Source: Aphelocoma coerulescens (lineage: Eukaryota > Chordata > Aves > Passeriformes > Corvidae). Taken from it: a stretch of 64,000 nucleotides of DNA. Every line of letters starts with the position of its first letter. The first letter of the stretch is position 1. The stretch lies in assembly GCF_041296385.1 (NCBI RefSeq), contig NC_091014.1, positions 65,542,578-65,606,577 on the forward strand, in the 5' to 3' direction. The translations under genes were made by a program, and so were the position numbers. The notes under the pieces were generated by a model. It was not told where the DNA came from. It worked only from the letters and a program-made list of their open reading frames with translations, and made no database searches. Shown here in pieces: positions 15,501 through 51,380 of the stretch.

Positions 15501-15836
15501 CAATTTGTGCTCTGTCAGTGGCACAGGCTTCAGCTCACAGTGCATTGTCTCCTGCCCTAGGTAAGTGAGCATCTTGAAGCAGATTCTGCCAAAGACAACC
15601 ACTGGTCTCTTTATATGTTTAATGGTGAGAAAGTACAAACCCTCAAGCTCACTGAAACCAGTGAAGCTTTTTCAGAAGAGCTGGAAGAAGAGTCTGAATT
15701 TCACTCCACACTCTACCATATGCTCAAGGATTTTGCCAGCAAGGAAGCCATGGATAAAGTGGAAAGAGCTGGCAGCCTGTTTATTGATTCTGTGTATCAG
15801 CTGCTCCTTGCTACCAGAGTCTTAGCATTCTCTTAG
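12426..15836 (+). CDS. DNAI7: DNAI7 (CASC1), 3' part of gene, axonemal dynein-associated protein
   Basis: Exons read: 12426-12583, 13307-13451, 13713-about 13932, 14537-14679, 14854-14967 and 15561-15836 (stop TAG 15834-15836). Recognised from segments typical of the CASC1 family: GGVYHIDALQLPPP, then WRTDGISNITYE, LPYQTWELQPTGVD, FTVTAVFATIQIK, and near the end KLTETSEAFSEELEEESEF and HSTLYHMLKDFASKEAM. The family product is linked to axonemal dynein in motile cilia and acts in cytoplasm and axoneme. Phases agree from 12426 to 13451 and into 13713, and again from 14537 to the stop. The join between 13932 and 14537 does not keep frame as I read it, so a small exon or another donor is missing. 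Only the C-terminal half is present; exons 5' of 12426 were not found. It converges on IRAG2. Identity is firm; the exact end of the third exon is not. Confidence 0.93.
13307..13451 (+). CDS. DNAI7: DNAI7 exon
   Basis: Acceptor ctctctctttccaaag before 13307; donor GCAG|gtatgaa after 13451. It is 145 bases, phase 0 to 1. It encodes VQITLRLPDNVIYFEAPVVA then QWDPAG, the start of the conserved CASC1 C-terminal domain. The split glycine codon is completed by the exon at 13713. Confidence 0.9.
13713..13932 (+). CDS. DNAI7: DNAI7 exon with conserved CASC1 core, 3' end uncertain
   Basis: Acceptor tttttggccag before 13713. It encodes QQWRTDGISNITYE, a block ending LLQDAHLNLPYQTWELQP, and TVTAVFATIQIK. 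The only reasonable donor after the conserved part is TTTACA|gtacct, ending the exon at 13932 in phase 2. The next recognised exon (14537) needs phase 1. Either a micro-exon lies in between, or the true donor differs, or a small indel is present in the A7 run at about 13918-13924. The start of the exon is secure, the end is not. Confidence 0.75.
14537..14967 (+). CDS. DNAI7: DNAI7 exons (14537-14679 and 14854-14967)
   Basis: The first exon follows acceptor tatgttgtcttcag and ends GGAAG|gtgagt. It encodes VLSHITGQWMSPFALREAL then GVNIFPAEHSHKYVPVPRK. The second follows ccttctgctctgcag and ends TTCAAG|gtttgt. It encodes an alanine-rich helix-forming run (AYAQMALLAAAFAFAHSKW) then PERVVFK. Both match the order and content of the CASC1 C-terminal region, and phases agree (ends on codon boundaries). 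Confidence 0.92.
15561..15836 (+). CDS. DNAI7: DNAI7 terminal coding exon
   Basis: Acceptor gtctcctgccctag precedes 15561. The exon runs from VSEHLEADSAKDNHWSLYMF through KLTETSEAFSEELEEESEF and ends LLLATRVLAFS followed by TAG at 15834-15836. It is 276 bases including the stop. Its first nine bases (GTAAGTGAG) are themselves a consensus splice donor, which is unusual for the start of an exon. Confidence 0.95.
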   Translation, partial: VSEHLEADSAKDNHWSLYMFNGEKVQTLKLTETSEAFSEELEEESEFHSTLYHMLKDFASKEAMDKVERAGSLFIDSVYQLLLATRVLAFS

Positions 15837-16281: not shown

Positions 16282-16525
16282 TTATACCGGGGGGGGGCCG
16301 TTGTGTTGCAGTCCTGTGTAGGGCCACAGCAGCTGCTGCAGCGACGTCCAGGAGTCCCCGGTGCCTACAGGGGCTGCATCTGCCGGTCTCTGCAGGGACA
16401 GCCCCGTGAGGAAGCTCGTGAGAGCAGCCAGCAGGACCAGGATGGACACGGACACCCAGAGGGTTTTGTTAGCGTTGGAAAAGGAAGCCTTGAAGTGGGA
16501 TGCCCACGCTGACACCAAATTGTAC
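16282..16525 (-). CDS. IRAG2: IRAG2 terminal coding exon: transmembrane span and KASH tail
   Basis: Acceptor tgtcctgcccag precedes 16525, and the stop is TAA at 16284-16282. The exon encodes [20 protein letters not shown], a single hydrophobic span ([20 protein letters not shown]), then a lumenal tail of about 40 residues ending [19 protein letters not shown] and PPPV. The terminal PPPV is the KASH signature that inserts into SUN-domain trimers in the perinuclear space. The upstream part faces the cytoplasm. The three prolines are encoded across a G9 run on the + strand (16289-16297), and the frame reaches the expected stop, so that run appears correct here. Confidence 0.97.
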
Positions 16526-19500
16526 CTGGGCAGGACAGGAAAGCACAAAGCCCTTCAGTGTTTCTTCAAAATGTGCAACTCTTCCCACCCCACCCCAAAA
16601 GCCATAAACCAAACGAGATCCCACAAACAAACATCCTCACATGTGACAGGTTGTTACTGTTCTGGGCGCTGTGCAGGGGGAGCTTCGGTGCTGGGTTTAA
16701 GACATGGTCAAGGAAGCAAATCCTTGATAAGCTGACCCAGCTCACCAGTCCACCCCTGCTCTCTGTACCTCACACTGCTTCTGAAGAGGATTCACAAAAG
16801 CTGCCTTGCTAGAGCAGCAAGAAATCTTGCTTGTAGAAAGCACTGAAAGTCCTGGCCTTTAGTTTGAACCCTCTTCCCACATGCACCTACCAAACGTGGC
16901 TTTAACTTGTGAAAAACACTTACACTGACTCCAAGGTCCATTTGGATGGGTATTTTCCTTTTTCAGAGACACTTTCCTTCCTGGTTGGTTGTTCCTGTAC
17001 TTCAGCAGGCAATTCTGACCGCTCATTTCTGTAAACAACAATCAACAGTTCCAAAGCTTTGCCAAATTCACAACAGCTTGGCTTTATAGCCCTGACCAGG
17101 TGGTGAATTAAAAGCTCCTTAAAAAACAAAGCAGCACATCGGGGAGGAGGCTGCTGCTGAACTTACTTGGTTTCAAAATGCTCCTCTTCATACTCTGCCC
17201 AGGAATAGGTGCTGAGGAACCTCTGCAGAGAAGGACGCTTCTCATTCTGCTTCACCCCTAGTCTGCCCCTGACGTATGTTAAAATAGTTTGTTTAAATTT
17301 CCCCAGCAGATACAGAGCAGGAAATGAGAAATTTAGCAGCAGCCTACTCATTTGGTTGAGCTCAGACAAATAACTTTCAAATTTGTTTGAAATTAGGATT
17401 ATTAAAAAAAAAAAAAGAAATCAAACAAAACTACTGATTCATCAATGGCACATACTTAGATTTCACATTCTAGTTCTAAAGCAAGGAAGTTGAGGGATTT
17501 TTTTTTAAAGCTCTCAATGCTCAATAAATAAAAAAGGAGAGCTCATGAGCCTCATTTACCTATTATAGCACATAAAACTAATGCGAAAGGTGTAGCCTAA
17601 ACATAATTATACCTCAAGATGCTCCATCAACTGCTTAATACAGGCACAGTTAGAGTTGAAAAATATTTCCCCCTGTTCAAAGACAAGCCCAGGTGACTTT
17701 ACCAACTGCTTGATCTCCTGCTGAATCTGTCAGTCCGTTCGTCTCCATCGGGCTCGTGGAACTGGGCCTGGAGGAGAAATTTGCCACATTTACTGCACTG
17801 CCATTCTGATGCTTCATCCCAGCTAGTTTTGGGGAGGTGAAGCACCTCAGCATCCCTCCAGCAGCCCCTACTTACCAGTGGCACCCCAATCCCTGCATTC
17901 CCAGCACTCCTGGGCACTGTTGCAATGCTAACTCTCCGCAGGGCTGATGAGGGCTATACAAATAAGAGGCATTACTGGCTCTTAGCAAGGCACAACTGGG
18001 TTCCCCACTGACCACACAAAATACCATCTGTTTTATACAAACTATATTAAAAAAAAGATGTTGATGCTTAGCTTGAGGTGACACACAAAGAATCCAATTT
18101 CAAGTGCAGATGAAATAATATTTTGAAAGCAGCATCTTTCCACACCAAGTGCTTTCTTCCCACCTGAGTGAAGCTGGCTGCACACAGCTTCCAGCAAAAT
18201 ACCAAAATTGAATGTATCTAAATTCCCCTAATCTTGCACACAGGAATTCCTACACTCAGTTTGAACTGCTCCCATCTATTTTTCTCATATTTCTGTGCTA
18301 AGCCCTCCTTTAACCCCAAGAAAATCCCACATGAACAGTTTTTCTTAACCAGTGAGTGAGTGCTCGACCATTTCAGCTTCATCTTCTAAGAGGGACCACT
18401 TAGAAAGTTAGTGGGGTGACTGGAAAGTAAACCTTCATGTTTGATTACATCAGCCCATATTTGTGACAGAAAAGCATCAAGTCAAGCATGCAGCAGAGCA
18501 CCAGCACATGACAAAGCAAAGAAAAACACACACACACTTAAAAAAAATCTTGAAATTTCATGTAAGGGCCATTACCTTAAAGTTAAAAGGACTTGGTAGT
18601 TTTTTATTCGTAGATTCATCTGCAAAGATATCAAACATCAGGGCATTACAGGAGGAGTTTGCTGCTTACAGGAATGCAGTGAGTTTAATTTGCAGCTTAA
18701 GGTCTGACTTTCTGCAGTGTTTAAGCCAAGAGCACTTTCAGAAAGCAGAAATGAGACCTCAGTGAAAAGCTTCCTGACGTTCATAGCATTCCCACATTAC
18801 CCATCCTCTGCAAGCATCTACTTCTGTCACTATCATCAAATGTATTCTATTATTGAGGCAATGTCCTGTTACAAGACTTTCACAGTCAGGACTGTGATTC
18901 AAAAGGCTCCTGCAAGGATTTTACTGGTGTGCAAGATTTCCCTTTTGGTTTTTACAGGACACATCCTCCTATTTTTCAGAAGAATTTAATATTTCTCTGG
19001 CAAAACCACAAGTGCACAGCATTGTCTGCAAACCTGGCTGCTTAGAGGGGGAAATAGACACCCCCTGCACTTGAAGGGGTTTGTAATTCCCATTTTGAAA
19101 AGGGCAGGGTGCATCTGTAGAGAGCAACCAAAGCTCAGCTACCTAGGAATAGATACTGTGAATACTCCAGTGTGAACAAGAACCCAAATTCACTGCTCAC
19201 AGGGAATAAGATTATCACCAACACATGCCGTGCACTTTTCTGAGAGCCAGAACATTCCTGTGTACTTGCAGTGGTCCCACACACACTCTCTCAGATCCCT
19301 GACAGTTTAGGTACAAGTTTAATTTCAGAGAGCTGCTTTTAATACTGTTAATAAATTACAATTTCCCCCCATTTTTAGAAGAGGGGATAAAACAACCATA
19401 TAATCCCACCACCTAAGATGTGGAGGGATTATATAAATATTCTGCAGCTGTAAGGGCCTGGCTGGCAGGTGCTAGCAAGGAGAAAGAGGCTTTTCCTGGT

Positions 19501-22500
19501 TACCTCTGTCTCCAAGGGAGCTGAAGGACCTCTCGTTCTGGAGCAGGACCTGCTTGAGCTCCTCGAGCTCCGCGTGTTCTTTGGCGTACATGCGCTTCAG
19601 GTTCTCCACGTGCTGGATCATCACCTCCACGGCCTTGCTCACCCGGCTCTCCTGAGGGAGCAGGGCAAGGAGCAGCTCTCAGGAACTGCCTCATGTTTGG
19701 AGATTTCCCCCTCAAGCATCTGCTCTCCTCTGGTATCACCATGGTACAAGAGCCTCTCACTTTTGTCCTCCCTTTCAAAGCTTCACTACAACCCACAACC
19801 CAATACATACACAGGTTTCTTTTCTCCAGGGATCACTCTTGTTGTAAAATAAATAAATTAGTCTTCAGTTTCCCAAGCCCTTACAACTCGTCATCATCCT
19901 CATCTCCTCTGATCTACAGTCTCAGCTGCCACCATGCATTTGCTGGTATTGCCAAGTCACATTTTCATGCTGCTCTGGGGTATTATACACAACTACACCT
20001 AACATTTGAGCAGGGCTTTGTAATTTTTCCATAAATTTAACTGATTACTGCCCTTTCCATAAGGCACAAAACAACCTTTGCAGCATCAAGGCAATTGTTA
20101 CCCACTGCTTGCTATTTTGTACATCCCACTTGCCAAACTTTTTGTTTGTTTTTTTCAACCAGAACCTTATTTCTGCTGTGGGTTTTTGCACAATTCTAGT
20201 GCAGCATAGCTGCTCTCAGTGCCTGGGATTCCTTATAATAACACAGAGTGAGAAGAGTACACTACATACATCAGATTCCCAAATCCAATCCTGGAACCAG
20301 AAGCCCAGCAAGCAGATGTGGCTATTTATCCCTTTACATCTGGAAGATTTTAGTTTTGTACAAAGTACTTTTAGATGGAAAGTGTTACCTGATTAATAGC
20401 TCCCAACATCTCTGCTCTGCTGGCGACTCGGGCTGCATATTGGCTAAGGAACTGCAGGCTTTTTTGCAGCTTCTTAATGATCTCCTGTGCTTGGTTATCT
20501 TCTTCACACAAAGGAGCTAATGCCTAGGAACACACAGTGGTAAGAAAACTGGTGTGAGTTACTAACAGAGAATCAAAGGTTGAGCTGATGACACTGAGGA
20601 GTTGTGTTCAGGCCCACATCAACATCCTCACTCTGACTGGGATAGAGAGCTCCGGTGGGCAGAGACTGGAGCATTAAGTCAGCTGAAGCAGGGGTCAAAT
20701 GTTTGTGCAACAGAAAAATTCCCTGCTGCCTGAGCAGACAATGTACTTGGATCAAGGTTATCCCTCAATCTCTCATATTTCAACTGCATTGCTCCAGAAC
20801 TTCATTCGGATTTGCTGGTCATGTATCCCATGCACACACACCCCCTTTAAAGAGCTGTTTTAAGAGACACTCACATCTACTTATCCCATCCACCCTACCA
20901 GCCCTGGCCAATACTGACCTCTAACATCTTCACAGCGTTTGTGATCTCCTTTTTCAAATTTTCTTCAGCCAAGTCTCGGGACCTCTCTTCGAGCTTCACT
21001 CTCTTGTCCAAGGTAAACAAGTCACACTTAAAACCTAAAGACAGCCTCAGAAATTCAGCCTGTTGTGTGAGAGAAAAAGATTCCTGGGTAATCCAAATGA
21101 TGCAGAAGTTTAAGTAGATTTGGACACTGACATGACATTTGGGACTATACCCTAGGAACAAAGTTTAGGGGAGATGCAGAAGAGTAAGTGAACATGACCC
21201 ACTTCCTCAAAGAAGGTCTTCCCATCTGTAGTGATGGGGGGAATGTGCTGCAGCCAGAAGAGGTGACATCCTGGCAGCACACTGTGCCATCTGTGCCTTT
21301 TGACAAAACTGTCTTAAATCAGCACATTCTGCCTGGGAGGAGGTCACAGCTATGCTCCTTCAAGCTTGCAAACAAATGTCACAGTAGTGACAAGTCTTTG
21401 TTCAGTTTTACAGGTTTCCACCTTTCTCCATCCCATCTCTTGCAAAAATTTTCATTAGGCTTGGAAAGAAAAATTTCAGAAGTTAACCTACAGAAATACA
21501 TCCAGTTTAGTCTGGAACATTCTTTTACACAGGAGGAGATATTAATCAGGGTTTAGCTACAAGATCTGTTGTCTGAGACACTTCAGGATACAAGCAGCTT
21601 ACCTCCACTTCCTTCTCATTTGGGGAGTCACTGTAGGAGAAGAAAAAGAACCATGGAACAGACTGTGGCTTTAAATTCATACCTGCAGGTGATCACTGAA
21701 AGTCAAAACACTTACGGCTCATTTTGCTTGGTTTTATCTCCTTTAATGCCACCTGCAGTGGGTGAACTCCCTGAGAAGAGACCAAAAAAAAGGTTTTCAG
21801 ACCAACATGAAAAAAACAGGCTCTCCAAACCAACCTGTGAGAGTCTTTTAAGCTTCCACAGAAGCCCCCGTTCAAGATTTCCAGTGTTGAGCTCTTGCCA
21901 CTGAAAACAACTCATGTGCCTCAGGTTCTGTTCATTGCGAGACACCACAGCACTGCCACTTGTACAAAGCCCAAAAAGTCAGTTGTTCAGGGGACTTCAG
22001 CTGGCATCTTATTAGCACAGAAATGGTTAATTGCAGGTTTTGGCTTCAGGGTGTTATGTAGGTAGGACTTACTACCTTCATCAGCTTTTAGCAAGCTCCA
22101 GAGGGAAAAGAGGAGGTGATTTGAAAAGTGGAGATGTCTAAGGAGAAACAAAATCCTGCCTTTCTATACCATCTATAGCACACAGAGATGCTTCTTTCAC
22201 AAATCTCTGGGGAGAGCAGGAGTGCCAGAACTGCTTCAAATATCTCAAACTCCTCTGCAGCTAAGAATTTCCCTCCTGTCTAGAAGAACATGGAGCTGGT
22301 TAAATGAGTATCTGCAGAAATCAGAGGAGCAGATTTTGCATGACACCACTGTCCTTCTCTTCATTTTCATCTCCAATTGCAGCTACTAAGCCTTAAAACA
22401 AAAAAGCCCCGGTCATGTTTGGTGTGGGACAGGCAGCTCTCTGCATCTTCCTACATAGCTCTGAACTCAGCTGACCAAGACTCATTACTCCAGTAATGTT

Positions 22501-25500
22501 AATTTGTTCAGCAAAACCCTCTTACCTTTCCTGCTGGGAACCACAGCTGGTGCTTCCTCACTGCGCTCTTTATTATTTTTCTTTCCCTGGTCCACCTCCT
22601 AAAGGCACATCAGAGCAGTTACAGTGAGAGAGCAGCCACACCACCCCTGGAGGGGCCTGTCCCCTCCTTTATCAATGCTCAGCCAACCCAGTTTGGCTTT
22701 CCACTGTCACCAGGACTCTTACCAGGTCTTGCTTCAAAATATTTTGAAACACAGGCTTGTGTTCTTCCATCACCAGACAGGATTCCTTCTTGATCTGACT
22801 TGGTTCTGTGGAGAAACATTCCCAAACCCAAATGTAACAATTAAAAAGACACACCAATCTTCCAACACGCACTGTTTTAGCCATGGGCCAACAGGGCTGA
22901 AAAACTGCACCAAATGCCAGGAAAGACCACTAAGAAAGAGAGGCAGCAGCAAAGAACACTACAAAGACACATAGGAAGAAGTGTGATGATAACTACAATT
23001 GGAAAAAATCCCAGTAAGAAGTGTTATATGTCTACAGCTGAGAATATCATGTACTTCCTGTAGCTGAAGTTGCAAGAGTTGCAGTAATATTCCCTTGGAT
23101 GAATAAATTTTATTATCTTGCTACCAGCATGGAGGTTTTTTTGTTGTTGTTATGTTTTCTGTTTAAAGAGGCAGCTTATAATTAATATTTATACCTTTAA
23201 GAAGATCTGGAATATTTTGTTTTCTCCTCTGTTTATGCAGTCACACACAGGTGTGAGACAAAGAAACAGCACAGGGAAAAACAAAAAGGAAAACATAAGC
23301 CAACCAAAACTCCAGCTTCAGGTTTGAAGCCTGCAGGAGAAGATTTATCAGCTCTAATACTAGAAACACTTTCTCTTCAGATATGTCCAACAAGCAACTG
23401 GATTCTCAGGCTGTTGCTCACATCTTTTTGATCTGTTCTGCATATCTGTTTTCTCTTCGCCAAATGCACCTGGACCACATATGAAAATTAACAGTAGAGG
23501 GAAATTAGTAGAAAGAAAATGCTTTTAAATGAAGGGACAGAATTAGATATCGGGAAGATAGTACTGAGGAAGGAAACAAAACCAATCAAGAAACTATAGT
23601 CTTGTATTGAGGTAAAGATTAAAAAAAAAATTGCAAACAAGCGTGCACAGCTATTCTGTGCTGCTTATTCAGATCAGCTTTACAAAAACAGCTTAAATAC
23701 AGTGTGTACACACACTCCAGTTTTGGTTTGGTTTTATGGTTTTTCACTGGAAGAAAACCATCAGATCTGGTAAGAATATGGTGGGTGTTAATGGCTCTAG
23801 CAAAAGACAGAACCATACACAAATGCCCCTCCCCTCATCTCTCCTCTTGAACCATCCCAGCGTCTTGTGCAACAGCCATGAAAGAGAGGAAAGTGTTTAG
23901 TGGCACTGTTGAACTAAATGACTTTTTAAACCCATAAAAACATATTTTTTCTCTTGTCAGAATTGTTTGGGATTTTGTACCCACTCAGGGTTTTGCCAGC
24001 TGAGCAAGCCCCAAGATCTCACCAAGTTCTTTCATGCTCCCTGTCTGCAGTGCTGTTGTAAGGTGGGTAAAATCTTTATTCCTACTCAGCTTCAGGGAGG
24101 CTTGAGAGCACTGGTGAGTGAAAATACTTTCAAAAATAGAAATTCTCAAGTTGTTGCTCTTACTCAGCTTCCTCACTTCAAAGATGTGCTGGAAGCAAAC
24201 CATTTCCTCAGTGGGTGAGTGCCAGGCAGTGCAGCAGCCACTGTACCTGACACAGGAACAGCTGGGTCCTTATCACTGTTTGTCTCTGTTGCTGCAGAAG
24301 TTGGCACATCTTCCCCTCTCTCATGTAAACCCTTGGGTGATCTTTCCTCCATAACAAAGCAGCCTGCAACATCAGACAGCAGAAAACACAGTTTTTACTG
24401 CTCAGTAAACACACAGACTTGGGCACATCCAGGACTTTCAGTGCCCCAAATTAAGGACTCACCTGGTGCTGGCGCTGTGCTTTCCACTGAGGATGCAAGA
24501 GCTTCTCGGGCTGATGTTAAGTGATCACTGCCAAAACAAAACCCTTTCAGATACTCATCCACATGATACAGATCTTGATAAAGGCTTTTAAATCTTGCAC
24601 AAGACCTGACCTGGATGGGATCAGAGTGGCTGGTAGTGTTGGCTCCCCACAGTCAATCTTCACAGAGAGAGAGAGAAGAGTTAGTATCAGAGTGATAGCC
24701 ACCAGTATAAAATTTGTATATCAAAGCTTTAACTTTCCCAGCTGTCCCTAAACTATTCCAGCAGTGAAGAACTAGCTGGTAAGTGCAGAGATTCACCTAC
24801 TAGTCTGAAGCCATCTCAGGAATATCATACTCAGAGATGTGCTTGGTTCCTGACTCCATGGTTTGCTCCTAACAGACATTTTCAATGACCAACAAACGTG
24901 TTACTGCACCACCACTGTTCCATCTTAACTCTGTGCATTACGAGAGATCCACTTGCAAAGTCTGGACCTCAAACCCTACAAGTGAGGTGCACAGAGCTCC
25001 ATTTGGCTGTAGGGATCAGACTCATTAGGTAAATAAAAGTGTTAATAGTCAAATCAATGAGCAAGCAGATGGTTCAGAACACAGAAAACTTGTGTGCTGT
25101 GTTGTACGTCTTAGTGACTGCCTCTGAAGGGATCCAGTTTTATGATAATGTATATAACAATTACCCAGCCTCTTTGGAGGCCTCAGGCCTCCCTGGTGTG
25201 CAAACAGCAGAGGAACAAAGCAATTAGAAGCTGGCAGTTTTGCTCATGTTCCTTGAGCTGCCACAGTGCGGTTTTGGACCCGAGTCTTATCACATCACAG
25301 ACAAAACCAATATCCTCTTGAGGCTTTTAATGTCAAGGGAGGTGCTATATGTGCACTATCCCTCTTCCTCATTTCATCCTGGAAAGCTGCAGCTCACTCA
25401 TTCAGTTGTTAGGTTGGTTTCTCTTTATGGGTAAAAAATACAGGGGGGAACTGAGGTTTAAAGGGTTAAGCTGGTAATGACTTTTGCTGAATTACACCCA

Positions 25501-40500: not shown

Positions 40501-43500
40501 CGGCTTCAGCGATACCCTACCTGCAAAAATTATCAGTGGTGGACAGAGAAGGGGAATCATGCTGCTGTTGGTGTTGGAGAATGCCAAGACCAGCCTGATT
40601 CCTCGGTCCCAAAATGAAAAGTTCTGAGGATATGAAGAACACTGTTTCCTGACAGAAACTGGCAGGAAGTGGCAAGGTAAAGCTCCTGACAAGGGAACCA
40701 ACTGAGCTGGCACAGCTGGTCTGGAAAGGTCTGACAGTTGATCACTTTATACCATAAAAGCCCAGTCCCACTTTTTAAAGTCAGGGGCTTCTGACACACC
40801 CCTTCAATCAAGGTGTGTGTGGAGATCCCTCCCTCAAGTGGGGACACTTGTCAAAGTTACTCCTCAAAGCTGAACAGAGGATTTGCCCATGGTCATCAAC
40901 ATGGGTGAGTAACAACAAACTCTATTGAATAATTATTAAGCTAGCTTTGAAATTATTGATTTAATAGCTAGTGCACTGTACACGTAGTTATAAGTAAATA
41001 ATTCTGATTAAAGTCTTTTAGTCTAATCATTATCCTCTATTTATATAAATAACATATTTTATTCATTTAAATATATTTGGTTTACTGCCAAAGATGCTTA
41101 TCAGAGTTCCTTAACAATACATTAGATGAAGACCCAACAACTTTATCAAGATGCTCACTCTAGTGCTGAATTTCCTTTCTCACTACATTAGGCTTCAGAG
41201 AAAAAGAAGTCTCCTCTTTCACAACTGAAAAATCATTGTTCATATCTGGTGTAGGCAGCACAAGAAGCAGACTGTCAGTTACTTTCTGCAGCATAAAAGC
41301 CTTTTTATATTGGAAAACTGATATCTTTTCCCATCAGTCTGTTCTTCTGCCAGCTAAACGCATGACCCAAGCTCCTCCAGATTTACTTTGAAGAGCAGAG
41401 GGGGGGTTGGAACTGGATGATCTTTAAGGTTCTTTCCAAAGCTGGCCATTCTAGGATAATATGAGCTAATTTTTTATATCTACAAGTGTTCTATTTGCTC
41501 TTCTTTGGGCTTTCTCCAAGGTGCTTGGGACAATATTGCAACCTTCTCATTCTGTGCTTACATGCTAGGATTAATGGCTTCAGATTCCAGAGTTATCTAA
41601 CCATCTACAGGGAATGAGCTTTGTTATGACTCTGCTGACGCAAGACAACTGCAAAGAGATTAATTTAAGGTTTAATTCATACCTCAGAAGACTGTGCAAG
41701 CTCCAGTTCACAGTGCAGTGAATTCATCCCTTCAGGAATATTGCTGTTAAATTTACACAACAACGGGAAACTCAACCCATTCCTGAAAGGGGCAGGAAAA
41801 AATTATGTGTCAGTCTTTTTAGGATTTCTGATGAGCCACCTTTCCTGGGATTTGGTCACAATACTCACGAGATCAGCTCTTGCTGCATGTGTTGGATGTT
41901 CTCCAGCAGTTTATTCTTTTCAGCCCGCAGCGTCTAAAACATCCGTGGGGTTTGGTCAGAGGCTGACTTTGCCATACAGGATCAGCACTGGCCCTCCCTC
42001 ACACAGCCCAAACCAAACCCATACCTCTATTATCGAGGAACACTCCACAATGGTTAACTTGAGTTCCTTGATATTCTGCTCCTTCTGCAGAGATTGTGGA
42101 GAAAAAAAAACAACAAAAAAAATTATATTCGATCCTCCATCACAGCAGTGAGAGGTATGATTTAACTTGAGCAGCAATCTGATTATGAAACAAAAATAGT
42201 CATGAATTTAATAGAATACAGTGAGTTACCATGCATATTAACTAATAAAAAGCACTCAGATGATCTTTTCTACCTAACTGCTGGAATTAAGGAGACAAAC
42301 CCTCATTTCCAGGTGCTGTACTTTAATTTATTACTTACCTGGTTTCAGGTCCAACAAATTAAGTTAGACAGAAACACTCTAGTTTTAGCTTAAAACATGA
42401 TCTATATTATATTCCAGCATGAGTTTTAATCCCAACTGACCCTGAGAACAAGTTGCAATATTCCAAGTTTACTGTAATTGTTTTTCATTATTAGAGGGTA
42501 GCACTCCATAGATTAAACATGACCTAACAGAAGGGCTGAAAAAGAGTCAGCCCTCATGGTAGGAATGAGGAATTGGTAGAAGAAGAACCTTTCTTAGCAA
42601 CTAGCAATGAGCTCCAGTCAGGTTATGCCATTCAAATAAAAGACACTGCATAGACAGCAGAGAATTTATAAGAGAAAACAGGAATTTTGAGTAGGAGCTC
42701 TTGTCCTCTCACACCTTTATGAGTTCTTCCTACTCTCTCTTTAAAAATCATTGAGGTTTTTGAAAGAGATGAAGTGCACAGAAAGCTAAGCAGGAAAAGT
42801 GAGGTTTTAGAACCAGATTATCCTAATGCCAACAAGTAAAGCCAGTTTTCCACACCAGTTTCTTCAAAAATTACACCAACCACACACATTTATCCACACG
42901 TAATCTAGCAGTCTACTTTCAGAATTCCCATTTAGTCAATAGACTAAGAGAGTCTTGTTGAAATAAAATGATACTACAAAGCTCACAAAAGCTTTGAATC
43001 ATTCAACTACAAGAAAGTGAAAGCTATTTAAAAAAAAAAAAAAAAGATTTTAATAAATTTGTACCCTTAAGCTGCTTCTGGAAAAACAATCAACCAAACC
43101 AAAACTATGAAAACATTCAGCTACAAAGTTATCAGCTGAATCACACCAGAGTTCAGTTCTCTTTGTTACTTTTTGAATTCAGCTGCAGCCACTTTGCAGG
43201 GAGCCCAAAAGTCAAATATTTTATCAGGAGATTTATACCATATTCTGCTAAGTAGAAACTCCACTAGCATAGAAGGCTCTTTGCATAATTCATGAATCCA
43301 GAGAAAGCCAACACATTTGTATAGTCTTATACCTTTGTGTTCTTGTCTATAATGCAAGAAATGTTCACTCCTCAGCAAAGCCTAGGCAATTACACCTCTG
43401 TAATAAAAGGACAGATTTCCAGTGGGCTTCAAGTCACCATTTCTAATTTGACACAAACAATTTCAGTAAAAGTCATGAAGGGGAAGACCTTCTGTAGGTC

Positions 43501-43573
43501 CCTGCTGAAGGAAGTAGCCTTTAGAAATTTCTGGACATTTTGTCTGAAGTTTGCAAGTTTGTTTTAATAGGTT

Positions 43574-43628
<55 letters not shown>

Positions 43629-45101
43629 GCAACTAAAATCCTGAAACCTTTAATTATGCTGACTCATAACCAGGTCCTAAAGTAGAGCTCGCCTACTTTG
43701 AAGCCATTTATAGGATCAGGTTCTGCAGTGTGAGAAGAGTAGAAGTAAGAGTGCCACAGTGAATACTACTGCCTTGCCTTTTTACAAATCATCCCATCAG
43801 TACAGACCAGGAACCTGGGCCAGTGGAAGCTGTCCCTGCCCATGGCAGGGGATTGGAACAAGGTATCATTAAGGTCTCTTCCAACCCCAACTGTTCTGTA
43901 ATTGTGTGGTTTTCAGTCAGCAATGAAGTAAAAGCAACTAACCTGGATCAGGGTTGCCTCTTTATTCGCCACAGTGCTCTCATAGATATGGGCTTGGATC
44001 TGAAGAAGGAAAAGACCAAAAGTAAACCCAGCCATCAGTACAGACTATAATAAAAGTCTGTTCCTACTTGCTATTAGGAAAGGAAAAAGAGTATCAGTGT
44101 TCCTTGCTTAGAAAAATCAAATTTTTCTTTGAGTACCTTGTGTGGTATTTGTTTCAAAGTACAAGTCTTATACCCAAAGAATGAAAGCATTCTCAGCTTT
44201 CAGTCACCTTTGTTTCCTCTCATCTGTCCAGGCCAATATTTCCAGTAACATCTCCCAAAGCATGACCTTAATATATTTTCTTGAATAGTGAGGGAAAGGT
44301 ATCCAAAAAAAGTTTAACTTGGAGGAAAGAACAAAACTTTGGACTGTTTCTATTAGCCCAGTTTTTAGCCTCCAGACAGCAATTTCCTTACTGAAAGCTG
44401 TCACACTATCCAAGCTACTATTGCATTGCAGTCCTTCAATGTAGAGAGGTTCATGGCTGTCTGCCTTCCAGCAGCAGAAATTCCCCCTTCACTAGACCCA
44501 AATGAAATACAGGTTGACTTTTTATTCCTCCCAGCTTCAAAATGCTTACTTGAAGTTGTGCTGCATTTTTAGACAGCTCCAAAATCTTCTTTTGCAGCCC
44601 ATCGGTGTCCATGCTGTTCCTAATAATCTAAACAAGACAGAGAGTGTTTAGGCACAGCTGAATGGATTGACAGCTTCTCCTTGAAGAAACCAGGAAAAAA
44701 TGACATCTCCACCCCCAAGCTGCTGCCTACTCTCGAGCACTATCAGCATTTTTGCACATACATTGCATGTGTTTGCCCCACCAAAACTGCTTCTGCTCCT
44801 TTTCCCACCCAGAGAACTGGTAAAAGAGAAAACCCCTCAAAATGTGATTTATAACCACTGCCAGACCTCAAAAGCTAAAGAAAATGCCCTGCAGCATTGT
44901 TTTCAGAAAGATGTGGTTTAATAGCTATTTGGACTAAGGAGCTTTGCAGAAAGACTGATCTTAAGGTGCTTCTTTTATTACTAGTTGGATTTAGCCTGTT
45001 TCTCCATTTCCCCCTGAACAGTCTGAAATACATTTGGTAAGCAAGCGTTAAAACATTTTATCACCTGATAAAAACTGCTTTGTAAAATATTTGCTCTAAT
45101 G

Positions 45102-45147
<46 letters not shown>

Positions 45148-48100
45148 TAAGAATGAACAGGTCTCCTCTGAATAAAAAAAAGCATAGGCATACACTGCTA
45201 ATGTAGCTGCATTCCCTAAAAACCTCCTGTACATCCTTGGTCAGTGTCAATGGAGCCATCTGTGAGTGGAGACCCCACCCACTGCTTTTTTTTTTTTTTT
45301 TTCCTACATATTTTAATGTTACAGCTCTATACAAGGTTTCTCCTTTGTATCTTAAGGGAGGAAAACAGAAGTGAATATGAAATGAAGTGCTGGATAGAGA
45401 TTGTTTCAATATAGATTTTGTGTATTTATAGCTGTGGAAACCAGAAATACATGGAATTTGCCTATAAATCTTAGAAAAAAGGTGGTGGTAGGAGAGAAGT
45501 AGTTTGTCCCCATGCTTCCCTAACCTCATATCCTTACTTATCCAGCAAGTGGAAAATCTGAAGCACAGTGCAACCCCAAGATACAAAGTTTTATGACAAA
45601 TCATCCTTTTAAAATGCTAGATATTTTGATAACCTAATTAGCATGCCAGTTTTCAAAGTCTGACAAACATTTAGTTTCTTAATGGCAAATTTTAGCTAGG
45701 CAAGAGCACATCAAATCATAACTTTATTTTACCTCTTCCTGGAGAGAAGTAACTTTGATGTTGAGAGACTGATTTTCTTTTTCCTGATCAAGTTTATGAG
45801 GAAAAAAAAAGAGGAAAAGAAATAATAGAAAAAGAAAAAGAACAAAATAGTTGGTTTTAGCATGTCAAATTCAAAAGGAATTCAAAAAGGAACAGAGCAC
45901 AAACACATGCAGAGCTGTGGTGTTGAATGCCTTTGTTTCAGAGAGCACACGGTAAGGGGACAGCTGAGGGTGGTGCAGCTCATGAACCCTCACTGAAGGT
46001 ACAGAGAAGGTCTTCTGATTTTTAACAGCCTGAGCGGCCACACCACTGTTACAGCAAGGTGTGAGGTGCTGTACCAGGCAAACCAAGAAGGAAGAGCACC
46101 TACAAGCTGTTTGTTCTGCCAGAGAATCTGCTCTCTCTTCTCTTCTGACAGGTTCAGGTTGTTTCTTGCTTCCTCTAGTTCTTCTTCCAGTGATTTGGCT
46201 TTCAACACAGAGTGTTGGATGCTGCACAGGGGGAAGCAAATTCAGAGAAACTTTAGCCAGTTAATGCTGGTTGTTTAGATAGGCTGGAAATAGAGTATTT
46301 TTAGAAGCCACCAAGGACTTATTTTATGGCACAGAGACTTAACAAAAGAGCAACAATCAAGTTTAAGCCCATCATTTCTGCCCAGGAAGCAAAGGCTCAT
46401 GGTTCTACTTCCTATTTATCACCCCCTTCCACTCTTACAGTGAGGGATGAAACCCCAGGCAAACAAAGCCATGTTAAATACATTAAAATTTTAGCTTGCT
46501 ACAGTTAAATGTATCAGGTAACCTGAGCACAAAGCCATCTTTGCAACACTTCACAGTTTACAGTTGGAGAAACCATTTCAGTCCAGTTTTCCAGGATAAG
46601 CTCTGCACCATTTTCTTACCCTGATCTGATAAACCCCAAATCATGTGTATTAAAGTCACAATAGGCCCTTTTCCAAGCTAACTCTATCCTGCAGAGCATC
46701 CCAGAGCAGGTGGTCCCACAGAGGGGCATATGTCCCATGCCAGCTACCCTGCACAACTCTTGCCTTAATCTCCCCCAAAAATCCTGGGAGCAGTTTGGCA
46801 GCAGACCAAGCCATATCACAGTGTAATTAATTAGGCCAGATGAACACAATGAAAAATAGGCTTGTACTTGTGGCATTGATATGTCCCCAGGCTACAGAAA
46901 CACTGAACAAGTGACACAACTTACCTCAGTCCTGCAAATGAGTAGCAAAACAGCTCTCAGACACTCATTTCCCCTCTGCTTGGCAACAAGAGTGTGGTCT
47001 AGGATTGGAAGCCTTCCAATGCTTGGCTGTTCTCTTGGTAATATTAAGCCTTTTTTTTTTTTCCTTTTATTTCTTTTCTTTTTTTTGGTTTTGTTTTGTT
47101 TTACCCTGAGATTTTTCCCTCTCTGTACCCACACCACCACACGCTGCAGAAACCTGGCTCTAAGATGAATGATTTTCTAAGAACCAGGAGGGACAGAGCA
47201 GAACAATCAGACAAGAGGGCTAAACCTTACAGATATTACATAAAGTCAAGAAAGCCACTGTGGTGAAGAACTGGTGAGGAGAAAAGCATGAAAGCAAGGC
47301 TGGAAGAACACAGCTCTGCCCGTAGCAGGCCTGGTGCCATCAAGGTCCCCCCACCTTTTTAATTGTTGATGTAGATGCTCATTATCTGCCAGGAGCTTGT
47401 TGTTGGTCTCATCCACAGCTTCCAAGGTGAGCTTCAGCTTGTTGTTCTCTTCCTGAAGCTTCTGGTTGTTGTACTGCAGGTCCGCAACACAGGCTATCAA
47501 GTCAGAGGTCTCCCTGTCCCAGTAAGAAAGCCAGGAAAGACTGAGAAAGGTGATTTGATCTACTGCAGACTTTTAAAACATCCTAATGCACATATTAGAG
47601 GCCAGAGAAGAGCCCACAGAGGACTTGTGATGCTGCAGTGTCCAGTCATTTGCTCTGCACAGAGGTCTTGGAGCATCTTCAGGTCAGTTCTCCAGTTTTA
47701 GGACACCAAGAACAGTTTTGGTTTTAAGCACTTTTTCTGCTCCCTACAACTGAAGTTTTCTGCCAGCAAAGGGCCATAGCTGGATGTCTGTATTGAAATG
47801 CCTTTAACTAATCACCTCTTGGGCCACTAATGATGCTTCTGTACTCACTCTGCAATTTCTGGATCCTTTCTTTTCCCCAGGCCATCCTCCACTTATGCTT
47901 TCAACCAAAACATGAATGAGGATCATTCTTTTGAGATCCTGAGAAATTATAGGGAAGCATTACAGAGCAGATCTTGCATCTCTGACTATGCATGAATTGC
48001 AAATGAAACTTCTCCTCTTTGTTAAGTGCTTTGCTATTAACAGAGTCCAAGTCATAGACATAACTGCTACTACTACGATAAACCCAACAAACTCCCTATC

Positions 48101-51100
48101 ATAAGAAAAACAACCCCAAACAAAACCAAGATCAGATTTTCCAGGGCATAATGTCTTATTGTCAGACAACTAAGAATTTGGTGGAGAGAAGGAATCAGTT
48201 TAAACAGGGAAACACATGGCAAATCTCTGACCACAGGGAATTAAAAAGGCAAATGGACACAGAAGCACCAAGATATCAGCAGGGAAATTACTGGTGTGTT
48301 TTTAAGTCTGAGCAGAAGCTGTGAGGAAGAAGGCAACAGCATCAAGAGCTCCTGCAGACTGAGGTGAACATTAAACTCTGCCAGGATAGTGTTCCAAAAC
48401 AGAGGTTCTAGGAATTTCTGTCAAGTAATTCAATACTACATTCTGAGAAGGAATTGCTTAAGTGGACTTACATGTCTCCTTTAGACACATCACCCCCAAA
48501 GGCCTCCAGGCTTCCTGATGTAACATTCATCCGGACATGTGTCTTTTTGGCTGAAAGAGGTGGGGGTTTTGGTTATAGAGCAAGAAAGTGGGGCTTTCCT
48601 GGACAGAAACAGAGTAAAACATCGTGCACCTTCAGAGATGTTTCTAGGTACTTGAAATTCCAGGTCCTCCATGCTTGCTGATGATTCTTCAGTAGCACCT
48701 TCTTCCCTGAAAGAAGGGAGCATCCAGGGTCACAAAATCAGCAGGACACTGGGCTGCTTACCAGCTTTGTAACACAAAACTTCAGCCAAACCCAATATTG
48801 TGGACATGGTGCCCCAATAACACCTTCTTTCCAGAGTCACAGGGGAAGTTTATATCTCCTGTTTTCACAGAGGCATTGAGAGAAATTTATTAAAATGCTG
48901 TTACCATTTCCTCTTACGGTCTTCGATCCACTCTCCCATGATGGCCTGATATGTTTCCAGGTCCATGGAGATATCTTTGTGCTCTGGGTCAAGCATGTTG
49001 CACAGCTCCTCAAGACCACTGTCCTCTGATCCCCGACTGGTTGTATGTCTCAAATAATCAACTATTTTGGACACTGCCACTTTTCCTAAAGCAGAAACAG
49101 GGGTCAGGCTCCAAAGCCAGGCAAGGCATGATAAAAAAACTGTAAAAGGCCATGCTACTGAACTGCATTGCATCCAAGTGCCCTCAAGAGCTGCAGACAA
49201 GCAACTGATCCCTGCAGCTGTAGTGTGTCCAGAAAAAAAAACGGTTTAGAGATCTTGTTTGTTGTGTTGTAGGGTTTTTTTAGTGGTGGTGGCTTTTGGG
49301 TTTTTTCTAGTACGAGAATGTAAAAATCCAGTTTACTAATTTTGTGGATTTCAGTTCAAGAGAGACAAAAGTTGACACACAATACTAATCCTTGCTCTCA
49401 GGGCCAGGCTGGATGGGGCTCTGAGCAACCTGGGGTAGGGGAAGGTGTCCCTGCCCATGGCAGGGGCTTGGAACAAGATGATCTTTAAAGTCCCTTCCAA
49501 CCCAAGCTATTCCATGATTCTACCATGTTTGAGCTGGAACTGGGAGAAATTGTCTCTTGCTCTGAAGTGTCCCAAGTTTCTAACAGCATAAAGGCTGAAA
49601 GAAAGAAACAGTCATTTGCAGTGAGGGTAATTCCTAGAAACATGTTGCTCCTCTATTTCTCCTGCACTAAAACACTGCAGAGAACAGCAGGGGAAGGGTC
49701 AGGCACCATGCAAAAGAGGCACAGACTCTTATACTTCTATTCTGCATCTGCCACAACAGAGGCACCTAAGCATGCCAGAGATTGGCATCTCTCAGGAATC
49801 ATAACACGATCTGAACCTTGGAAATCTGTTGAGAGGAGACCAAAAGAGAGCCCTGAAAAATCCCTGGCAAACCTGTGTGATGGATGTCACATGCACAGAA
49901 GATGGTGGTCAGCAGGTCCTCTTCACAGATCAAGCTCACATCGTATATGTTGTCAGCTTTGTAGGCCAGTGTCTGCCTCCCTCCTGCAAAGAATAAATCT
50001 GTTATTGCCCATTTTTATTTGTTCATGATAACTTTCATTCCATACGACTGAAACAACAAAACCTACTAAGCAGCTTCCCCTCTAATAAAAACAGAGCTTT
50101 TACTGCCAAATAACAACCAGAACTGGCCCTAACTTGAGCCTCTGAGCTGGAAATTACTTCATGCATCTACTTTTACACATGCATTTTTGGAAAAACTTTT
50201 TTATTCTTTCACCTGGAGTAAACATAGGAAACAGAACATTTTAAGAAGCCAGGTATTTCTTCCCTCCCCCTCCAGATATATTGTAGAGAAATCATTATAG
50301 TTGAGTCAACTTGTTAAGAAAGCAGTCCCTAAAACAAACAAACAAAAACCCCACAAAACCTCCAAACTAAGAGCGACACCCAAATTCATGTATCTTCTAG
50401 GTTAGTCTATATTAATAGCCAAATCATAGTTTAAATTAATAGCCAAATAAAATTTGGTTATAAAAAAAAAGCTAATAGTAGTCTAAATCTTTTAAACTGT
50501 TAAAAAAATCTCCATCTCTTAAACCAAAAGTTAATTACCAAATTTGAAAAAGTTTTTGCCTTATTAATTCCTTACAATTTACATTCACATTAATATTTTT
50601 TAGAGAAAACTTCAGATTTTCCTCAGCTCTTTTTGCAGTCTTATAAGATTTGAGTGCTACTAAAATGTGTTGCTACCAGTTTAAGTGGTAAATAAATGTT
50701 GTCTATGTAGGCTGAGTGTTCAGATGTGTAGGATTTTGAATCAGGGGATGTTTTTCTTCAGCATTTTTACCGCTTTCACTCGAAGGAAACATCTTCGGCA
50801 CAGGAGGTTGGACCACAGCACTTTCTGGCTTCTTCTCAGATGTGAAGAAATATAAATTTGGACTTGATGTCAGATATTTCTGCTTGGACTGCACATCTTT
50901 AGGTTCAGCATTTGCTAAAGCACATGGTTTGTTCTGGGCATTGGCCTCCCTGGATCCAAAGCAGTATGGAGAAGAGCTCTCCATGGCATAGGCAGGCATC
51001 CACGGGCTGCTGGATCTCTCAGTGCTTTTAAGGATTGAAAAGGTGGTGTTTGCAGAGTAGGGGTCAGAGGTGGCCCCAAGACAAGGCGAGTTCGCAGAGA

Positions 51101-51380
51101 AAACACTGTCACTGTCAGGGCTGACCAAGGGTGAACGAGGACTCTCTCGATTCCTGCAGGTTCTCCCCTTCAGTATTTCTTCCAGGTTTTTTTTGGTACT
51201 GCTCTGTGGGCTGTCGAAGTTCCGGGACTGAAATTTTGGTATCTGCAAAGCTGGGTTGGAGACTTGGTCCATCATTTGGATGGATTTGATCTTCCTGCAG
51301 ATGCTGTCGACTGGGTTGCGGTGCCGTTTCTTAGCTCCGCATTTCAAAGACATCATCAAATCCCTTCTCTTGCCAAATAT
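16282..51380 (-). CDS. IRAG2: IRAG2 (LRMP/JAW1), long form, ER/nuclear-envelope KASH protein
   Basis: I reconstructed 37 coding exons, summing to 4171 bases (about 1380 residues from the ATG at 51356-51354). Exon phases match at every join but one (18576-18620). Exons, 5' to 3' by left end: 50771, 49873, 48905, 48630, 48472, 47355, 46104, 45733, 44550, 43943, 42025, 41869, 41683, 39275, 36303, 34732, 34122, 32277, 31268, 30347, 29040, 28171, 24611, 24463, 24247, 22723, 22526, 21716, 21603, 20919, 20389, 19504, 18576, 17703, 17167, 16924, 16282. Family knowledge: IRAG2 is a tail-anchored protein with a coiled coil that binds IP3 receptors and a KASH tail that binds SUN proteins. Identity rests on the MRVI1 segment, [24 protein letters not shown], and the tail [16 protein letters not shown]. 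The classical human product is about 555 residues, so this long reconstruction needs transcript support. Confidence 0.93.
16924..17767 (-). CDS. IRAG2: IRAG2 exons encoding the Ser-rich pre-membrane segment
   Basis: Exons 17703-17767, 17167-17268 and 16924-17028. They encode [20 protein letters not shown], then [34 protein letters not shown], and [20 protein letters not shown] with [20 protein letters not shown], RPSLxRFxSTYSWA and PSKW.xxSV are landmarks of vertebrate LRMP just before the membrane span. RRSSS and RPS fit basophilic kinase sites (PKA/PKG type), and IRAG1 is a known PKG substrate. Phases are 0-2, 2-2 and 2-2. The 17268 boundary uses acceptor acatacgtcag; an alternative AG at 17344-17345 is in frame but would add residues not expected in the family. 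Confidence 0.88.
18576..18620 (-). CDS. IRAG2: IRAG2 small exon with an apparent one-base frameshift
   Basis: Acceptor tttgatatctttgcag and donor TTTAAG|gtaatgg delimit 45 bases. The upstream exon ends with one base of a codon, and the downstream exon (17703-17767) must begin on a codon boundary, so 44 bases are required. Read in the incoming frame, the exon begins DESTNK and then hits TAA. Removing one T from the run at 18600-18606 restores an open frame and correct phase on both sides. This looks like a homopolymer error or a real one-base insertion. Confidence 0.7.
19504..21059 (-). CDS. IRAG2: IRAG2 exons encoding the MRVI1/IRAG coiled-coil domain
   Basis: Exons 20919-21059, 20389-20523 and 19504-19651. 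They encode [100 protein letters not shown], and [20 protein letters not shown]. This is the signature block shared by IRAG1 (MRVI1) and IRAG2, with the [36 protein letters not shown] pattern. In IRAG proteins this region binds IP3 receptors at the ER membrane. Acceptors and donors are all canonical, and the first two exons begin and end on codon boundaries. Confidence 0.96.
21603..30455 (-). CDS. IRAG2: IRAG2 exons encoding the low-complexity linker before the MRVI1 domain
   Basis: Exons 30347-30455, 29040-29187, 28171-28252, 24611-24657, 24463-24527, 24247-24363, 22723-22805, 22526-22598, 21716-21770 and 21603-21630. All joins are in phase. The chain is about 270 residues, poor in hydrophobic runs, and likely disordered. 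Landmarks are [140 protein letters not shown] and DSPNEKEVE. The 30347-30455 exon has a strong acceptor (ttcttttctttttttttccaattag) and is needed to keep phase, although its Trp-rich content is odd. The linker carries several acidic and Ser/Thr patches but no domain I recognise. Confidence 0.75.
26308..26530 (-). mobile_element. CR1 LINE fragment, reverse
   Basis: Begins atagaatcatacaatggttt, gggttggaagggaccttaaa, and continues through gccaggggcagggacacctt, ccactatcccaggttgctct, ttggacactgccagggatgg and gcagccacagctcctctggg. This is the reverse complement of about 220 bases of CR1 3' end. It lies in an IRAG2 intron in the same orientation as the gene. Confidence 0.92.
29695..29925 (+). mobile_element. 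CR1 LINE fragment
   Basis: Contains ggttcagcctggagaagaga-type sequence, the cacagggtgcccagagaagc and ggctgccccatccctggcag words, tggaaggtgtcctgcccatg, and the tail ctgatctttaaggtcttttc. It lies in an IRAG2 intron, antisense to the gene. Confidence 0.92.
31268..39376 (-). CDS. IRAG2: IRAG2 coiled-coil exons, second half
   Basis: Exons 39275-39376, 36303-36466, 34732-34846, 34122-34284, 32277-32338 and 31268-31333. They encode [115 protein letters not shown] and [20 protein letters not shown]. All phases agree. The heptad pattern runs on from the preceding exons, giving a coiled coil of about 440 residues in total, consistent with a dimeric rod. The Cys-rich LLCQCCAEL junction near its end is distinctive. 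Confidence 0.85.
35568..35690 (+). mobile_element. CR1 LINE fragment
   Basis: Contains ggggctctgagcaacctggg, atagtggaaggtgtccctgc, aactggatgatctttaaggt and gcccaggccattttatgatc. It lies in an IRAG2 intron, antisense. Confidence 0.9.
36110..36292. repeat. Low-complexity A/C-rich stretch
   Basis: About 180 bases consist almost only of A and C on the + strand, with (CCAA)n and AACCCC words, immediately 3' of the IRAG2 exon 36303-36466 in gene direction. It is a simple-sequence expansion. Confidence 0.8.
41396..41465 (+). mobile_element. CR1 LINE 3' tail fragment
   Basis: gggttggaactggatgatct followed by ttaaggttctttccaaagc and ggccattctaggata. Diverged CR1 tail, antisense in an IRAG2 intron. 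Confidence 0.8.
41683..47513 (-). CDS. IRAG2: IRAG2 coiled-coil exons, first half (KASH_CCD-like)
   Basis: Exons 47355-47513, 46104-46221, 45733-45783, 44550-44627, 43943-43999, 42025-42084, 41869-41933 and 41683-41743. Together they encode an uninterrupted heptad-rich chain beginning [20 protein letters not shown] and continuing [99 protein letters not shown], and [15 protein letters not shown]. The opening lines up with the coiled coil that directly follows the EF hands in KASH5. The 47513 boundary uses acceptor ctgggacag, not the gag four bases further in, because only this keeps frame. The 46104 donor is read as CTT|gtaggt for the same reason. Confidence 0.85.
43581..43619 (+). repeat. 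Poly(A) tract, 39 bases
   Basis: A perfect A39 run in an IRAG2 intron, followed by gaagaaaaagc. No retrogene recognised beside it. Confidence 0.9.
43800..43908 (+). mobile_element. CR1 LINE fragment
   Basis: ggaacctgggccagtggaag, ctgtccctgcccatggcagg, ggtatcattaaggtctcttc and caaccccaactgttctgta mark a CR1 3' end, antisense in an IRAG2 intron just before exon 43943-43999. Confidence 0.88.
45106..45144 (+). repeat. Poly(A) tract, 39 bases
   Basis: A perfect A39 run in an IRAG2 intron between exons 45733 and 44550. Confidence 0.9.
48472..48706 (-). CDS. IRAG2: IRAG2 linker exons after EF-hand domain
   Basis: Exons 48630-48706 (77 bases, [20 protein letters not shown]) and 48472-48550 (79 bases, [20 protein letters not shown]). 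Acceptors are ttctttcag and ctttcag; donors are GAAG|gtgcac and ACAT|gtaagt. Phases 2 to 1 and 1 to 2 fit both neighbours. The first is acidic and Ser-rich, a likely flexible linker between the EF-hand-like domain and the coiled coil. Confidence 0.75.
48905..49983 (-). CDS. IRAG2: IRAG2 exons encoding a KASH5-like degenerate EF-hand pair
   Basis: Exons 49873-49983 (111 bases) and 48905-49085 (181 bases). They join in phase to give [20 protein letters not shown], then [20 protein letters not shown], and after a spacer [20 protein letters not shown] followed by [14 protein letters not shown]. The pattern [LTxxF.ACD..xTGxVAV...V..YL] ... [LDP......DLxTF..VM.xWI] is that of the N-terminal EF-hand-like domain of KASH5 (CCDC155). 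Loop 1 (DIHHTGKVAVSK) lacks acidic ligands and ends in K. Loop 2 ([12 protein letters not shown]) keeps D1 and E12 but lacks the central glycine. Calcium binding is therefore doubtful. In KASH5 this domain helps contact dynein light intermediate chain. Confidence 0.85.
49403..49525 (+). mobile_element. CR1 LINE fragment
   Basis: ggccaggctggatggggctc, tgagcaacctggggtagggg, aaggtgtccctgcccatggc, agatgatctttaaagtccct and ccatgattctacc. Antisense in the IRAG2 intron between the two EF-hand exons. Confidence 0.92.
50771..51380 (-). CDS. IRAG2: IRAG2 first coding exon, Ser/Pro-rich N-terminus
   Basis: Acceptor tattctttccag precedes 51380, and donor GAAAGCG|gtaaaa follows 50771. The 610 bases are read in phase 0 to 1, which fits the EF-hand exon at 49873-49983. 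Likely start is one of the tandem ATGs at 51356-51351 ([14 protein letters not shown]). The first third is basic and looks conserved: [20 protein letters not shown], then [18 protein letters not shown]. The rest is Ser/Pro-rich and probably disordered ([26 protein letters not shown]). I think the basic block resembles the N-terminal IP3-receptor-binding region of the KRAP/TESPA1 (ITPRID) family, but this is from memory. If the donor is not used, the frame stops at TAG 50703-50705. Confidence 0.75.

Follow-up and report, generated by a model that had tools for sequence, protein, structure and literature searches.

Based on the analysis described here, we identify the main gene of a 64,000-nucleotide stretch of the Aphelocoma coerulescens genome (the window, C2:65542578-65606577; positions below are those of the window unless a contig is named) as bird IRAG2, also known as LRMP, JAW1 or KASH6. 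The gene itself is known, and it is present here in its long form, with a front half that has been neglected: a KASH5-type EF-hand and coiled-coil half is joined in one gene model to the IRAG2 half, as the initial annotation had claimed, and Pfam profile matches to EF-hand_9, KASH_CCD and MRVI1 now bear this out. Taking the sequence comparisons and published work together, we consider it on balance probable that bird long IRAG2, likely the counterpart of zebrafish futile cycle (fue), anchors dynein at the endoplasmic reticulum (ER) or nuclear envelope bearing inositol trisphosphate (IP3) receptors.

The gene runs on the minus strand from 51356 to 16282 as 39 phase-chained coding exons without an internal stop (37 in the initial annotation), in an exon model built from the window sequence. 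The exons were read by hand; automatic exon dynamic programming recovered part of the chain (23 exons), and exons 23, 24 and 37 were set after comparison with the Corvus protein P0001. Every intron follows the GT-AG rule at both ends (38 donors, 38 acceptors). The start of the ATG exon is probably 51380 (acceptor ttctttccag), which leaves a 5' untranslated region ahead of the ATG, and this acceptor fits the end of the span first assigned to the gene. There are 1458 codons before the stop, and 1457 residues when counted from the second Met; Pfam coordinates refer to this 1457-residue protein, while other residue numbers count from the first Met. Two candidate exons were dropped by eye: one at about 23470, whose donor phase would create a stop, and one at about 26008, in place of which Corvus P0001 uses 24657.

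Comparison with annotated proteins confirmed the single phase-consistent chain that had been proposed from the letters. Seven annotated bird proteins align with the model over its whole length (78-94% identity, 0-40 gap positions), and P0003 agrees throughout (1456 columns, 0 gaps, 90% identity). The best protein matches are songbirds, with Corvus P0001 as the closest relative (89% over residues 200-1480 of a preliminary 1483-residue model). P0001 departs from the model in exons 13 and 19 and where exon 16 begins, through alternative exons or prediction differences; exons 13 and 19 were retained. When the 20 residues around each exon junction were compared with 60 bird proteins, 34 of the 38 junctions had a gap-free counterpart of at least 60% identity in 44 or more of the proteins, the weaker ones being 1-2 (14/60), 20-21 (37/60), 26-27 (20/60) and 27-28 (40/60). 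As a reading of sequence, the single-chain, three-domain gene model is far beyond chance.

The Pfam matches are EF-hand_9 at 221-285 (E = 1.2e-14), KASH_CCD at 345-533 (E = 4e-49), which is a coil of about 190 residues behind the EF hands, and MRVI1 at 961-1457 (E = 7.5e-152), which reaches the C-terminus. KASH_CCD and MRVI1 had been anticipated together with a relationship to KASH5, and these stood; EF-hand_14, also anticipated, was not among the matches. In the AlphaFold2 model of an ostrich relative the EF-hand pair is also present, and the coiled coil extends over about 345-836 with a low-confidence, mostly non-helical stretch past about 542. The gene is assigned to IRAG2 rather than IRAG1: the best matches among those listed are named IRAG2 or LRMP, the tail corresponds to a human IRAG2 peptide, and DNAI7 adjoins the locus. 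The C-terminal 42 residues align with human IRAG2 in PDB entry 8b46 (E = 2.4e-13), and the human IRAG2 peptide of PDB 7z8y is matched at 2.8e-9. According to the passages available of PMC10827754, the 8b46 peptide was crystallised with SUN1. The membrane span and PPPV tail noticed at the outset are thereby placed in exon 39 (16525-16282), which encodes a hydrophobic membrane segment (by eye) and a predicted luminal KASH6 tail ending in PPPV, followed by the stop. With a C-terminal hydrophobic segment and a tail homologous to the SUN1-crystallised peptide, the chain has the features of a KASH protein, and SUN binding is predicted.

This architecture is not peculiar to birds, contrary to the initial annotation. 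Among the best 120 of 583 matches, the three domains occur together in 113 proteins, whose sources are birds, turtles, alligators, squamates, salamanders, a caecilian and a frog. Since there was no mammal among these 120, mammals were sought with a chimeric query ending in the human tail, with length set to exclude short forms. Its 45 matches comprise 28 proteins with all three domains (23 of them mammalian), 14 with MRVI1 only and 3 lacking the EF hand; the mammalian three-domain models are from monkeys, lemurs, equids, whales, bovids, bats, the naked mole-rat and an elephant shrew. None of the 45 bears a human label, and the 90% clusters may conceal a human entry. Therefore, with three-domain proteins in sauropsids, amphibians and mammals, the long form is widely annotated tetrapod IRAG2. 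Human IRAG2 numbering, in the passages seen of PMC10827754, ends at 555, with the KASH domain at 515-555. This is about 38% of the length of the 1452-residue Cercopithecinae long model P0239, which supports the initial view of the classical 555-residue human protein as a C-terminal part of the long form, without the N-terminal half. Database names mislead in this family: the ostrich (Struthio) 'protein KASH5', P0122, is an IRAG2 front half, and the elephant-shrew (Elephantulus) protein P0263, named 'myosin-3-like', has all three IRAG2 domains.

Front-half and back-half models also occur separately, and one could suppose two genes, an EF-hand/coil gene followed downstream by a short IRAG2, that only gene predictors have joined. 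Among the best 120 of 177 matches listed, 90 bird models of at most 500 residues consist of the front half alone; short mammalian IRAG2 models exist (the 14 of 45 with MRVI1 only), and the linker between the halves is weakly conserved. Near the end of 78 of the 90 partial bird models stands NLVS, a read-through of the exon-14 donor (39640 downward, intron 14), so some reference may include a front-half transcript that ends early. But the partial models share one odd ending, as expected from projection of one reference, and most may not be independent. Moreover, exon phases chain across the linker, the junctions are shared by at least 44 of 60 bird proteins at 34 of 38 positions, and the three domains stand in one protein in 113 of the best 120 of 583 matches and in 28 of the 45 chimera matches. 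The zebrafish EF-hand mutation, too, maps to a gene named lrmp in the passages seen of PMC10071310 and PMC8115505. We therefore regard two separate genes as very unlikely. The NLVS-ending partials could represent a soluble front-half product resembling a tail-less KASH5, or an annotation artefact.

In a two-sequence comparison, the model and human KASH5 are 30% identical over 320 residues covering EF hands and coil (5e-39); the human KASH5 sequence in our comparisons is to be taken as approximate. The relation between KASH5 and Lrmp is already in print (PMC8115505, PMC10071310), and KASH5 was identified, by one of two routes, via similarity to the zebrafish LRMP homologue Fue, as far as the available part of PMC8115505 states. 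We searched the jay genome (1.33 Gb, 660 contigs) for KASH5 and for profile matches. A genome-wide KASH_CCD profile scan reported exon 6 of the window as its sole match at E <= 0.001, and the ostrich front-half model P0122 is labelled KASH5; taken by themselves, these two observations would suit a long IRAG2 that replaces a KASH5 lost in birds. However, distinct KASH5 pieces lie on contig C231 (136,638 bases; L007, about 7200-4960, minus strand) in a 10-kb stretch with 71% guanine plus cytosine (GC). On one strand and collinear, they comprise an EF hand (EF-hand_9, 5.1e-8, below the cut-off), a coil (KASH_CCD, 1.4e-24), then a hydrophobic segment and a PPPL tail. The genome-search matches to them are individually weak (0.0014 to 0.41), and the case is made by the three collinear pieces with the tail. 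Over 178 columns, the C231 sequence is 46% identical to this human KASH5 sequence and 29% to the window protein. In an eight-sequence tree the C231 and human KASH5 sequences pair with support of 1.000, apart from the window protein. Loss of KASH5 in birds is thus refuted, and we give almost no credence to long IRAG2 as its substitute, because a separate KASH5 is in the same genome. For the same reason the window protein is not the closest to KASH5 among the paralogues here. GC-rich genes such as this are easily missed in bird annotation. The KASH_CCD scan overlooked the C231 gene, so exon-by-exon negatives are weak. Judged by these comparisons, IRAG2 and KASH5 are paralogues, both in this genome. 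The KASH5 pair joins the tree beside equid IRAG2 (support 0.819), probably a long-branch effect and a placement that does not date the IRAG2/KASH5 split. A weak tetraspanin match (6.9e-6, below the cut-off) lies upstream of the C231 pieces, and a further EF-hand_9 match above the curated cut-off was seen at C2:2308161-2308343 (2.4e-7).

It is plausible that long IRAG2 acts as a dynein adaptor. In KASH5, nine residues have been placed around the helix of the dynein light intermediate chain (LIC), three of them with severe mutants, in the passages available of PMC9242646. We counted the corresponding residues in 126 of 264 relatives, namely those of at least 1200 residues (99 sauropsid, 22 mammalian and 5 amphibian, grouped by id range). 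Of the severe-mutant positions, L77 is Leu in 125/126, F97 is Tyr or Phe in 125/126 and M101 is Met in 117/126, the last in just 15 of the 22 mammals. I36 is Leu in 111 and Y60 Tyr or Phe in 122, and V54, the valine of fue, is Val in 121. The fue change has published consequences (PMC10071310, in part): in fish, an EF-hand mutation of futile cycle (lrmp) harms pronuclear migration, while the corresponding substitution in KASH5 greatly lowered dynein binding and prevented dynein from being recruited to the nuclear envelope. Exon 13 (41782-41683), which follows the first coil, encodes a Spindly-like candidate, SLHCEL (residues 562-567); the pattern SLxxE[hydrophobic]xLA[QE], in the window SLHCEL(E)LA(Q), occurs in 113 of the 126 long homologues. 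The need for such a motif is disputed in the passages seen: KASH5 1-349 was unable to activate dynein according to Garner et al., in disagreement with the processive movement of a KASH5 EF-coil construct reported by Agrawal et al.

Several observations weigh against a dynein role. KASH5 T40, V64, R73 and L98 are identical in none of the 126 relatives, and the strict Spindly consensus is found in 6/126 and absent from 120/126. Mammals show weaker constraint on the EF region than on the KASH_CCD coil (64% vs 89% between P0239 and P0250), although annotation error may explain some of the difference. Most of the homologous proteins are predicted models, which may not be independent, and the long form is known here from genomic sequence. 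The words dynein and EF-hand are absent from the IRAG2 review PMC10298018 and from the Jaw1 paper PMC7804115, so no published link between IRAG2 and dynein was seen in those papers; in the available part of that review, microtubule association of IRAG2 is reported without considering the front half. Similarity searches were no more informative. A PDB sequence search with the EF-coil part gave coiled-coil noise only (best 0.024; none at <= 0.01), a family-profile search of PDB sequences matched the KASH6 tail alone, and Foldseek gave no match at E <= 0.001. Among the 50 structural rows listed, those for the EF region were generic EF-hand proteins such as centrin and calmodulin, and no row was CRACR2A or FIP3, which does not exclude a likeness to these. 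A different reading, in which the long form is made but its N-terminal half no longer binds dynein and instead spaces or oligomerises the calcium machinery as a coiled-coil module, would account for the four of nine LIC-facing positions that never match KASH5, for the strict Spindly motif lacking in 120 of 126 long homologues and for a KASH5 separately present in the genome. It sits less well with the three severe-mutant pocket positions and V54, which are kept across amphibians, sauropsids and mostly mammals, and with an EF region more conserved than its flanks (86% identity to turtle, against 37% before it and 58% after). We hold this spacer role to be rather unlikely, though a serious contender.

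Along the gene, all exons being on the minus strand, exon 1 (51356-50771, residues 1-196) encodes a basic N-terminus with a conserved motif and then a Ser/Pro-rich linker. The motif, of about 50 residues (about 51330-51180), is conserved from newt to monkeys, with no Pfam match and no counterpart in the approximate human KASH5 sequence; over residues 1-60, identity to the model is 81% in turtle P0073, 66% in newt P0110 and 47% in equid P0250. The KASH5-type EF-hand pair (EF-hand_9) lies in exons 2 (49983-49873) and 3 (49085-48905). The entering helix of EF-hand 1 is encoded by exon 2, whose 111 bases and symmetrical phase would allow skipping in frame. The signature of this exon is present in 109 of the 126 long proteins and 0 of the 90 partial bird models (119/126 and 0/90 with a looser pattern), and its absence from the latter may reflect projection from one reference. 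Exons 4 (48706-48630) and 5 (48550-48472) form a linker whose final SLEAFGGD aligns with NLESFGGED of human KASH5. The KASH_CCD coiled coil occupies exons 6-12 (47513-47355, 46221-46104, 45783-45733, 44627-44550, 43999-43943, 42084-42025 and 41933-41869), and beyond exon 13 a distal coiled coil occupies exons 14-20 (39754-39641, 39376-39275, 36466-36303, 34846-34732, 34284-34122, 32338-32277 and 31333-31268). A variable linker follows in exons 21-30 (30455-30347, 29187-29040, 28252-28171, 24657-24611, 24527-24463, 24363-24247, 22805-22723, 22598-22526, 21770-21716 and 21630-21603); residues 837-1040 are 34% identical to turtle. Within exons 21-22 (30455-29040, residues about 868-878), the block (Y)TPLLDALxLE stands out in a 33-sequence consensus, reading SSPLLDALTLE in the window. 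Exons 31-33 (21059-20919, 20523-20389 and 19651-19504) encode the strongly conserved coiled-coil core of the MRVI1 domain, where residues 1096-1247 are identical at 97% in duck, 86% in equid and 82% in newt. Exons 34-38 (18619-18576, 17953-17876, 17767-17703, 17268-17167 and 17028-16924) form a stem before exon 39.

Outside the gene and convergent with it, the 3' exons of DNAI7 (CASC1) occupy 13300-15836 on the plus strand, with exon ends set by eye, and serve as a syntenic marker. Pfam gave no match on the open reading frames of this neighbour, which was identified by PDB sequence comparison: once joined, its exon pieces hit dynein axonemal intermediate chain 7 (9fqr_Hn, 2.3e-78). We take human LRMP and CASC1/DNAI7 to be neighbouring genes as well.

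Comparison with known systems suggests how such a protein might work. KASH5 (CCDC155), which is reported to activate dynein, shares EF-hand_9, KASH_CCD, a hydrophobic tail segment and a PPPV end, but has 562 residues and lacks MRVI1, the distal coil and the N-terminal motif. Short human IRAG2 (LRMP/JAW1, 555 residues) shares the MRVI1 coil, the membrane segment, the KASH6 tail and the DNAI7 neighbour, but the first 60% or so of the long form, with its EF hands and the coil resembling that of KASH5, is missing from it. The EF-hand dynein activating adaptors CRACR2A, Rab11-FIP3, ninein and Rab45 likewise have an EF-hand pair followed by a long coil, but gave no PDB sequence match at <= 0.01 to the IRAG2 front half; they are not known to be KASH proteins. 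Zebrafish lrmp/fue was compared through published statements only, its domain order being taken from papers later than Lindeman and Pelegri 2012; in the passages seen of PMC10071310 and PMC8115505, the gene is named for its LRMP half, has an N-terminal region homologous to KASH5 and carries the EF-hand mutation. Long IRAG2 is most likely its counterpart and a tail-anchored protein of the ER and outer nuclear membrane. By analogy with KASH5, the N-terminal half would bind the LIC of dynein and, together with the coil, recruit dynein-dynactin; the MRVI1 coil would bind IP3 receptors as in mammalian IRAG2, and the PPPV tail would bind SUN proteins, as the KASH6 tail is reported to do with SUN1. 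The long form would in this way keep dynein at an ER or nuclear envelope bearing IP3 receptors, most likely for centrosome-nucleus attachment or nuclear movement, and an internally started short form would retain the calcium half only. Calcium control of the dynein step itself is unlikely, because KASH5 binding is calcium independent in the published passages seen.

The IRAG1/IRAG2 review, in its available passages, describes a 75-kDa ER protein that binds IP3 receptors via its coil and associates with microtubules and SUN proteins, and whose knockdown fragments the Golgi (PMC10298018); the word zebrafish is likewise absent from it. Papers on KASH5 refer to the Lrmp homologue of fish, and the parts of them available do not mention long IRAG2 models of mammals, birds and reptiles with an adaptor-like half. 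In the literature covered (listings, abstracts and passages, with most subscription journals outside the scope), there was no statement of a dynein-binding long IRAG2 linking IP3-receptor and nuclear position. Garner et al. 2023 (PMC10071310, in part) write that the KASH protein acting in pronuclear migration of mammals has yet to be identified, and long IRAG2 is an obvious candidate. A bolder version, which we offer tentatively as possible but less than probable, is that tetrapods, and probably fish, share long IRAG2 as a second transmembrane adaptor that activates dynein. It would be the amniote fue counterpart and a candidate for the KASH protein that mammals use in pronuclear migration and in attaching the centrosome to the nucleus; through its IP3-receptor half, calcium release would be coupled to the anchoring of dynein, and a switch between motor-plus-calcium and calcium-only forms would be made by alternative promoters or by skipping exon 2 in frame. 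The neglected front half of long IRAG2 yields a precise, testable prediction: if it does bind dynein, one linker would be common to IP3-receptor position, microtubule association and nuclear position.

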